This document shows, piece by piece, positions 5,210-58,340 of a DNA stretch of 59,921 nucleotides (its first letter is position 1; each line of letters begins with the position of its first letter). The notes below the pieces were generated by a model. It was given only the letters and a program-made list of their open reading frames with translations. It was not told where the DNA came from and did no database searches. The position numbers were made by a program, and so were the translations under genes. Origin of the DNA: Candidatus Pacearchaeota archaeon (GTDB lineage Archaea > Nanobdellota > Nanobdellia > Pacearchaeales > GW2011-AR1); the NCBI GenBank assembly GCA_002688015.1, contig NZBT01000011.1, forward strand, positions 1-59,921. The letters are read 5' to 3'.

Positions 5210-5332
5210 GATCCTGTAGCTCAGCCTGGTTAGAGCGCTGCTCTTATAAGAGCCCTGTTCGATAGAACAGAAACTTTCAAGCTAAAAAGCTAAGAAAGGC
5301 AGAGGTCCTGGGTTCAAATCCCAGCAGGATCA
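5210..5332 (+). tRNA. tRNA-Ile(TAT) with intron 5249-5296
   Basis: Acceptor GATCCTG/CAGGATC, anticodon stem CTGCT/GGCAG, loop CTTATA^A with 48-nt insertion at 37/38; CTTA/TAAG 4-bp helix with 3-nt bulges. Confidence 0.88.
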
Positions 5333-7855: not shown

Positions 7856-7927
7856 GGTGGTTGTCGTATAGCGGTAGTACACATGGTTGTGGTCCATGAA
7901 GGGAGAGTTCAATTCTCTCCTTCCACC
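7856..7927 (+). tRNA. tRNA-His(GTG) with genome-encoded G-1
   Basis: CATGG-TTGTGGT-CCATG anticodon arm, G-1/C73, T-arm GAGAG-TTCAATT-CTCTC. Confidence 0.9.
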
Positions 7928-7928
7928 C

Positions 7929-7973
7929 TCTTTGTCTGCCGAGGTGAGTACTCGAACAAGAGTAGATCAAAGA
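7929..7973 (+). ncRNA. novel 45-nt structured RNA element, copy 1
   Basis: TCTTTG-TCTGC-CGAGGTGAGTACTCGAACAAGA-GTAGA-T-CAAAGA; same length and architecture as 58296-58340 with compensatory stem changes. Confidence 0.7.
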
Positions 7974-8022: not shown

Positions 8023-9249
8023 ATGAAATTTGAACCAGAAACAGTAAAAGGATTCCAGGACTTTCTTTCTCCTGAATCAGTAAAAAGAAAACAAGTGAAA
8101 AAGATAATTGAAAATTTCTTTGAACTTTATGGTTTTATCCCTATAGAAACTCCTATTGTAGAATATGATGAACTCATGATGCCTGACTCCATAGACTCCA
8201 ATGAAGATGAAGCTGTCTCTGACCGATTTAGACTACAAGACCGTGCAGGACGTAATCTTGGCCTAAGATACGAATTCACATTTCAATTACAAAGAATATT
8301 CAAACAGAATCCAAATCTCAAATTGCCCTTCAAAAGATATCAAATAGGTCCTGTATTTAGAGATGAACCAATTTCATCAAACAGATTCAGACAATTCGTA
8401 CAATGTGATGCAGATATAATTGGTTCCTCATCTGTTGACTCTGATGTAGAATGCCTCTCTCTAATATCTGATATAACAACTGCTCTTGGAATAGAAGCAG
8501 AAATAGAGATAAACAATCGTAAACTCCTCGCTTCGATAATAGAATCTGTTCAGATACCTAATCCAAGTAAAGTAATAAAGGAAATAGACAAATTTGAAAA
8601 AATAGGAGAAGATGAAGTTAAAGCAAACCTAAGAAAATTTACAACTCCAAATCAAATAGTAACTCTTCTTAAGCTCTTAGAAAAACCTTTCTCATTTTTT
8701 CTTGAAAACGCATTTGACGGAGCTGAAGAACTAAAAAAAACAATAGATCAAGCAAAACTCTATAAGATAAAATTAAAATTCAATCCTTATCTTGCTCGTG
8801 GTCTAGGATACTACACAGGGAACATCTTCGAAGTTAAAGTTCAAGGAAGCAAAAACACAATCGCAGCAGGAGGAAGGTACGATAATTCTGTTGGAAAATT
8901 CCTAAATAGAGAAATCCCAGCAGTAGGAATTTCCTTTGGCTTAGAAAGAATAACTCAATTAGCTAAACTTTCTGTTCCCAAACCTGTAAAGGCCTTAATA
9001 ATATCAATAGATGAACCAGAAGACTCCATCTCCCTTACTAAAAAACTAAGAAAATCAAACATCCCTTGCGTTCTAACATTCGGTCAAGTAAGCAAACAAT
9101 TAGAATATGCAAATAGTCAAGAGATTCCTTACGTAATTTTCATAGGATCTGAAGAAATATCAAGCAAGAAATTCAAACTAAAAGATATGCTTTCCGGAGA
9201 AGAAAAGCTTTTAAACGGAAAACAATTAATATCTAAACTTTCAAAGTAA
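8023..9249 (+). CDS. hisS: Histidyl-tRNA synthetase
   Basis: Class II aaRS motifs; KGFQDFL, ARGLGYYTGNIFEV, AAGGRYDN. Confidence 0.95.
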   Translation: MKFEPETVKGFQDFLSPESVKRKQVKKIIENFFELYGFIPIETPIVEYDELMMPDSIDSNEDEAVSDRFRLQDRAGRNLGLRYEFTFQLQRIFKQNPNLKLPFKRYQIGPVFRDEPISSNRFRQFVQCDADIIGSSSVDSDVECLSLISDITTALGIEAEIEINNRKLLASIIESVQIPNPSKVIKEIDKFEKIGEDEVKANLRKFTTPNQIVTLLKLLEKPFSFFLENAFDGAEELKKTIDQAKLYKIKLKFNPYLARGLGYYTGNIFEVKVQGSKNTIAAGGRYDNSVGKFLNREIPAVGISFGLERITQLAKLSVPKPVKALIISIDEPEDSISLTKKLRKSNIPCVLTFGQVSKQLEYANSQEIPYVIFIGSEEISSKKFKLKDMLSGEEKLLNGKQLISKLSK

Positions 9250-39081: not shown

Positions 39082-39171
39082 TGGACCCGGAGAGAATCGA
39101 ACTCCCGACTTCTGCTGGCTCTCCGCTTAAAGGCGCTGGAGGCAGGTATTATACCATTTAACTACGGATCC
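39082..39171 (-). tRNA. tRNA-Trp(CCA) with short intron
   Basis: Acceptor GGATCCG/CGGGTCC; loop CTCCAG^A with about 19-nt insertion at 37/38. Confidence 0.88.
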
Positions 39172-56287: not shown

Positions 56288-56463
56288 AGCCACTACCGGG
56301 AATCGAACCCGGGACCTCTACATATTCACTATATCAAAGGAAGGTGACCTATTATGGAAAACTTCAATCTCGTTTTGAGTTGGAGTTCCAGAGAGTAAAA
56401 CTCTCTAGGACCTTGATTTCATATAATACCAATGTAGCACTCTACCGGCTGAGCTATAGTGGC
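56288..56463 (-). tRNA. tRNA-Thr(GGT) with about 103-nt intron (56324-56426)
   Basis: Acceptor GCCACTA/TAGTGGC, anticodon stem CTACA/TGTAG, loop TTGGTA^A; intron helix ATCAAGG/CCTTTGAT. Confidence 0.88.
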
Positions 56464-58127: not shown

Positions 58128-58295
58128 GCTCCTGTAGTCTAGTGGCCAAAGATACTGCCCTCTCGTGTGCCGAGGATTACCTCTCTGGAGAATATCCTCA
58201 GTTCTCTCTAGGACAGGCCAAAAGTTTTGTGCCTCTTCAATATTGAAGGGGCACGGAGAACGGCGGTGACCCGGGTTCGACTCCCGGCAGGAGCA
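58128..58295 (+). tRNA. tRNA-Glu(CTC) with 95-nt intron (58166-58260)
   Basis: GCTCCTG/CAGGAGC; canonical BHB: CTCT/GGAG 4-bp helix, 3-nt bulges CG^T and AA^C, GTGCC/GGCAC inner helix. Confidence 0.92.
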
Positions 58296-58340
58296 TCTTT
58301 GTTCACAGATGCGAGTACTCGAGCAATAGTGAATCAAAGA
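58296..58340 (+). ncRNA. novel 45-nt structured RNA element, copy 2
   Basis: TCTTTG-TTCAC-AGATGCGAGTACTCGAGCAATA-GTGAA-T-CAAAGA. Confidence 0.7.

Follow-up and report, generated by a model that had tools for sequence, protein, structure and literature searches.

A probable mobile palindromic element at tRNA gene ends in one family of Pacearchaeota

The closest known kind to the sequence analysed here is, by analogy, the Rickettsia palindromic elements (RPEs), which are 105–146 nt long and are reported between genes, in frame within protein genes and in RNA genes, namely those for RNase P RNA and tmRNA (Ogata et al, 2000, 2002; PMC2229807, PMC10969869). Like RPEs, our element is a small palindrome present in many copies, enters RNA genes as well as protein genes and has no known mobilising enzyme. 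It folds as a single long stem-loop, and its in-frame gene insertions keep one conserved open frame. It differs from RPEs in being archaeal and 45–92 nt long, in its preference for tRNA acceptor ends, in its occurrence as a tRNA intron, in the direct repeats of 9–43 nt on some copies and in its internal-loop modules. The likeness is one of kind and no sequence similarity is claimed. Palindromic repetitive elements with coding potential are also reported from Methanocaldococcus jannaschii (Suyama et al, 2005, cited in PMC2229807). By their description these are likewise archaeal palindromes, some of them fused into protein genes, but their host belongs to a different archaeal phylum. We know of no tRNA-end targeting by these repeats.

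Mobile palindromes of a similar size include the yeast mitochondrial GC clusters such as GC42 (∼42 nt), which duplicate AG or ACT at their targets (PMC4478555), and in Neurospora mitochondria tRNA genes are reported to be flanked by GC-rich palindromes (Yin et al, 1981, cited in PMC4478555). GC clusters share with our element stems that are more constrained than loops, units that merge and shuffle and the lack of a known enzyme, but differ in their short target duplications and in the type of genome. To our knowledge, tRNA-intron formation has no precedent among them. Prokaryotic MITEs and REP elements are also short and non-autonomous, with inverted repeats and, in some, target duplications. 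In contrast to these, our element targets tRNA ends, lacks TA ends and has covarying rather than fixed stems; its direct repeats vary in length and are absent in most copies, and we identified no parent transposon. It is also unlike the IS200/IS605-REP system in that Y1 transposases do not track it. Finally, gain of tRNA introns via a mobile element has been proposed for another archaeon, Caldiarchaeum (Sugahara et al, 2012; PMC3293823), where the element is of the integrase type and uses an att site for recombination, whereas here the intron corresponds to an inserted hairpin plus a short tail. We found no earlier description of the element in open-licence papers, and its tRNA-end target, tRNA intron, modular internal loops and DPANN host are new.

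The element in the window and in its host family

The window, a 59,921-nt stretch of DNA analysed at full length, contains two 45-nt copies of the element (Table 1). Copy 1 had been described in the original prediction as a structured RNA beginning 2 nt after tRNA-His; the distance is 1–2 nt, with the tRNA ending at 7927 according to Rfam or 7928 according to ARAGORN. The predicted length, 6-bp outer helix (P1), bulged T and second helix (P2) were borne out in both copies. P2 comprises the proposed 5 bp and one further pair between element positions 12 and 32 (C-G in copy 1, A-U in copy 2), with A33 bulged. Three P2 differences between the copies were correctly identified, two of them compensatory and one a change from G.U to A-U. 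The apical core, GAGTACTCGA, is the same in both copies and occurs twice in the window, compared with 0.02 times in shuffled sequence. Neither window copy matches Rfam, in agreement with the view that the structure belongs to no known family, and no copy among the loci scanned matched an Rfam family above its gathering score.

Table 1. Positions of the two window copies, their helices and the adjoining genes.
Feature	Position	Strand	Basis or remark
Element copy 1, 45-nt form	7929..7973	+	sequence; model R1 match 62.6 bits; pair counts over 69 copies
Copy 1 P1	7929-7934/7968-7973		
Copy 1 P2	7935-7939/7962-7966		bulged T7967
Copy 1 extra pair	C7940-G7960		A7961 bulged
Copy 1 apical core	7946-7955		
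Element copy 2, 45-nt form	58296..58340	+	sequence; model R1 match 62.7 bits
Copy 2 P1	58296-58301/58335-58340		
Copy 2 P2	58302-58306/58329-58333		bulged T58334
Copy 2 core	58313-58322		
tRNA-His(GTG), insertion target of copy 1	7857..7927	+	Rfam tRNA model + ARAGORN
tRNA-Glu(CTC), insertion target of copy 2	58128..58295	+	sequence read by eye
tRNA-Glu(CTC) intron	∼58166-58260 (∼95 nt)	+	sequence read by eye
hisS, downstream neighbour of copy 1	8023..9249	+	ORF

Copy 2 directly follows the discriminator A58295 of tRNA-Glu, a gene identified by eye from its acceptor stem (GCTCCTG/CAGGAGC), its T-arm (GGGTTCGACTCCC) and the anticodon CTC. Because of its long intron, this tRNA was reported neither by ARAGORN nor by Rfam at the gathering threshold. 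Three further long tRNA matches in the window (5210-5332 on the plus strand, 39082-39171 and 56288-56463 on the minus strand) were returned by Rfam and not by ARAGORN and probably contain introns; the genome appears rich in tRNA introns. The acceptor stem of tRNA-His apparently features two adjacent U.U mismatches, both in the window genome (7857-7927) and in G021 (L138 538-608). A hisS match was found in 167 of 184 family genomes, and the tRNA-His/hisS order is seen in relatives with and without the element.

The window genome (G000, 592 kb, incomplete) carries seven copies. These are localised after tRNA-His, Glu, Lys, Gly(CCC), Leu and Gly(GCC), with one inside the intron of that tRNA-Gly(GCC). 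Using a covariance model built from eleven copies, we searched 191 genomes of the same Pacearchaeota family, all of them incomplete, fragmentary MAGs, and identified 91 copies in 18 genomes, with up to 16 per genome; as the model was trained on the short form, decayed or divergent copies were probably missed. The search for DPANN homologues proposed with the prediction thus returned many, all convincing ones within this single family, and samples of the order, class and phylum gave no convincing match beyond it. One match outside the family (G250, E = 6e-4) was attributed to chance, as the sequence looks unrelated and keeps little of the core, and when relatives were initially searched with a 10-base pattern, most matches were due to chance except in G000 and G021. 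Strict pattern matches in named records fell in Pacearchaeota, Nanoarchaeota or unclassified archaeon MAGs, and three patterns found no match among IMG/VR viral contigs. Within the family, presence of the element is scattered over the hisS tree, requiring 9 changes against a mean of 10.1 for shuffled labels.

The copies fall into two size classes, of 45 nt and 62–92 nt. All forms share P1 (6 bp), the bulged T, P2 (5 bp plus the 12-32 pair and bulged A33) and an internal loop composed of GCA and AA strands. The 45-nt form is capped by a 10-nt loop, and the other type of apex is extended by as many as two modules that repeat this internal loop; in predicted folds of the 68–78-nt forms, this asymmetric loop (GCA opposite an RA strand) appears two more times, once flipped. 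The apex, expected to be conserved, is near-constant only in the 45-nt form and is replaced by a longer hairpin in most homologues. The long forms thus show the freely varying core that the original prediction had named as evidence against itself.

Insertion sites and evidence of movement

Adjoining tRNA 3′ ends on the same strand account for 34 of the 91 copies, and 14 more lie just beyond a tRNA 3′ end in the opposite orientation. At least 5 adjoin a tRNA 5′ end on the opposite strand, 4 are counted by context within tRNA-Gly introns and 27 occupy other sites, several of these preceded, in the absence of a tRNA, by a sequence loosely resembling an acceptor end (for example GGTCGGCGCA). At acceptor stems, the element is attached by its 5′ end on whichever strand it occupies, and the junctions are typically GCA|T or GCC|A: elements starting with A are preceded by GCC in 12 of 14 cases, and those starting with T most often by GCA. 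Occupied and empty sites can be compared at tRNA-His, which is directly followed by the element in G000, G021, G211 and G219, with none at this tRNA in G225, G030, G226 and G223.

Seven copies are located within protein genes, always on the same strand and in the same phase, so that each encodes a peptide like RSPQRGAPQQSEEARSKSES. The genes, named from their translations, are those for uS11 (G219, G220), uS4, eL31 and MetRS (all G042), MetRS (G211) and PolB (G221). The MetRS inserts are ∼21 aa long and are missing from homologues at both sites.

Direct repeats were found at a subset of copies. A repeat of at least 10 nt ends at the 5′ edge of the element in 15 of 91 copies, and for 11 of 33 copies the longest exact flank repeat ends at offset 0 or +1 of the element start, the ends being scattered in the rest. 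The repeats span 9–43 nt (up to 38 nt exact, 43 nt with mismatches), and a tail of 2–34 nt, sometimes ∼70–130 nt, precedes the second repeat. At most copies, including both in the window, there is no recognisable target duplication. At locus L086, the apex of one copy contains a second, nested copy. In G224 (L112, L111, L114 and L115), truncated 3′ halves are chained after an intact copy downstream of tRNA 3′ ends, which suggests repeated insertion and decay at one site. Downstream of tRNA-His in G210 (L185) there is no canonical element, and an insert of ∼80 nt is flanked by the direct repeat CACCTTCCGCTT; this suggests that the insertion signature is shared but that the hairpin has decayed or is of another kind. 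At one G219 locus (L089 63-658), the archaeal RNase P RNA stands in line with a tRNA and two copies of the element, and at another (L081 144-371) a group I intron (Rfam 83 bits) lies near an element-bearing tRNA.

Based on the occurrence of both orientations, the tRNA intron, the in-frame gene copies, the direct repeats, the occupied and empty orthologous sites and the nesting, we read the copies as mobile, with movement judged from differences between species and genera. The 45-nt structure is very probably one copy of a mobile palindromic element, non-autonomous and found in one Pacearchaeota family, that targets tRNA acceptor ends. Individual copies may serve the host. The suggestion that the structure is a tRNA-trailer RNA captured the location of many copies at tRNA 3′ ends, but does not accommodate the remaining features just listed.

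Stem pairing, rival explanations and mobilisation

Covarying stems were part of the reason for expecting a selected RNA, and stem pairing is indeed strong. Over 69 distinct copies, 94.5% of cells hold a standard pair and two-sided changes occupy 182 cells compared with 51 in shuffles; controls with a slid structure pair in no more than 47%. P1 and P2 of 87 copies comprise 894 Watson-Crick pairs, 20 G.U, 24 A.C and 19 other mismatches, with 59 copies perfect. Acceptor stems of tRNAs at the same loci contain 58 G.U and 6 A.C, a count in which the approximate stem register leaves 76 other cells. The two G.U/A.C ratios differ strongly (Fisher p = 5e-7), on counts that are not independent as the sequences are related. 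Even the copies at tRNA 3′ ends alone show 10 G.U and 13 A.C. A selected RNA should tolerate G.U and purge A.C, so the lack of a G.U preference, unlike in the tRNA acceptor stems, weakens that reading. As far as pair counts can tell, the pattern is consistent with stems whose pairing is restored through copying or needed only in copies that move. Covariation as such was confirmed and the selected RNA drawn from it was not, since the copies behave as mobile insertions. There is a general caution here for RNA discovery: hundreds of compensatory changes have accumulated, yet G.U pairs are not in the excess that a selected RNA should show, and covariation by itself is thus no proof of a functional RNA.

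We nevertheless considered that the hairpin could be a structured RNA selected within tRNA transcripts, where it would guide or protect 3′-end processing or be released as a small RNA bound by a protein via the internal-loop motif. The strong covariation, the 34 sense copies placed exactly at tRNA 3′ ends, the location of all seven G000 copies in tRNA transcripts and the recurrence of the tRNA-His copy in four genomes all agree with such a role. It is nonetheless improbable given the scattered presence in only 18 of 191 family genomes, the same tRNAs without the element in close relatives, the antisense copies at tRNA 5′ ends, the copies within protein genes and the pair counts at tRNA 3′ ends. 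Among more specific RNA candidates, a T-arm mimic (GTTC...GAATC in many copies) was rejected because P2 reads CCT/AGG or TCT/AGA in other copies. C/D or H/ACA guide RNAs, kink-turns and small self-cleaving ribozymes were rejected by eye against consensus motifs, with no Rfam match, and a single functional strand suggested by G+U content was rejected since sense and antisense fold with equal energy.

The element hairpin, with its extrahelical base and variable apex, also resembles integron attC sites, a likeness that we take to be structural. That the copies are att- or attC-like recombination sites left by tRNA-targeting integrative elements, with the duplicated tRNA 3′ ends as att duplications, draws on the classic role of tRNA 3′ ends in integration (PMC3293823) and on the direct repeats of tRNA 3′ ends that flank several copies, but is very unlikely in view of the range of repeat lengths and their spacing from the hairpin without element genes between, the seven copies inside protein genes and the lack of an IMG/VR match.

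For the mobile palindromic element, we consider the following mechanism most likely. The element would move as a folded single strand, either DNA or RNA copied to DNA. An enzyme acting in trans would recognise the hairpin with its internal-loop motif and attach it where a folded acceptor stem is nicked at its 3′ end, and a staggered second cut would produce the direct repeats and the short tail. Since both strands of a tRNA gene would fold, copies are expected in sense at 3′ ends and in antisense at 5′ ends. Stems would stay Watson-Crick either because movement is restricted to well-paired copies or because one arm serves as template for its partner, and the internal loops would be kept for recognition.

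None of the enzymes considered (reverse transcriptase, Y1 transposase and Cas1) tracks the element, and Y1 transposase and Cas1 were rejected as mobilisers on that ground. In these incomplete genomes, RVT_1 is present in G219, G224, G220, G187, G196, G221 and G222 and was not found in G000, G042, G193, G054 or G021. Y1_Tnp is absent in G000, G042, G219, G193, G021, G054 and other element-rich genomes and present in many non-carriers, again among incomplete genomes. Among the likewise incomplete carrier genomes, Cas1 was identified only in G054, and casposon-type insertion by Cas1 was also rejected because the repeat lengths vary, compared with a fixed duplication of ∼14–15 bp.

The element as an intron of tRNA-Gly(GCC)

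How archaeal tRNA introns arose is still debated, and few direct links between mobile elements and tRNA disruption are on record (PMC3293823). In G000, G021, G022, G187 and G220, the intron of tRNA-Gly(GCC) begins at A37 and is made up of the element and a short tail. The same tRNA lacks an intron in G055, G028, G221, G222, G223 and G229. In the hisS tree, G220 groups in a tight clade with the intronless G221 and G028, for which reason we favour intron gain in G220. It is also possible, given the single site shared by all tRNA-Gly introns, that the intron is old and was lost repeatedly.

Under insertion into the anticodon loop, the element and its tail would become the intron, and the tail would supply GCAA or GCGA for pairing with the exon. 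In all five introns, a tail GCAA or GCGA can pair with exon TTGC, although the inner helix is weak, and a 3-nt bulge on the 3′ side is kept in four of the five predicted folds. From these models we infer that the intron would be spliced at a bulge-helix-bulge-like site. The Gly anticodon together with position 37 reads GCCA, the same string as the GCC|A acceptor junction.

These features raise the bolder, and rather doubtful, idea that a tRNA-seeking hairpin makes tRNA introns de novo. In such a scheme the hairpin would recognise GCC|A or GCA|T acceptor ends and the GCCA of the tRNA-Gly(GCC) anticodon loop, an undescribed enzyme would insert it as a folded single strand, the tail would provide the splice-site helix and the arms would be copied together, which would yield covariation without G.U intermediates. 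The element thus appears able to provide new tRNA introns in nature. Its position at tRNA ends, the tRNA-Gly intron without a counterpart in near relatives and the in-frame copies in essential genes make intron gain by insertion testable in natural lineages. A tRNA-Gly(GCC) in G211 (L233) has a short intron of ∼21 nt that lacks a complete element and may be what is left of a copy since deleted.
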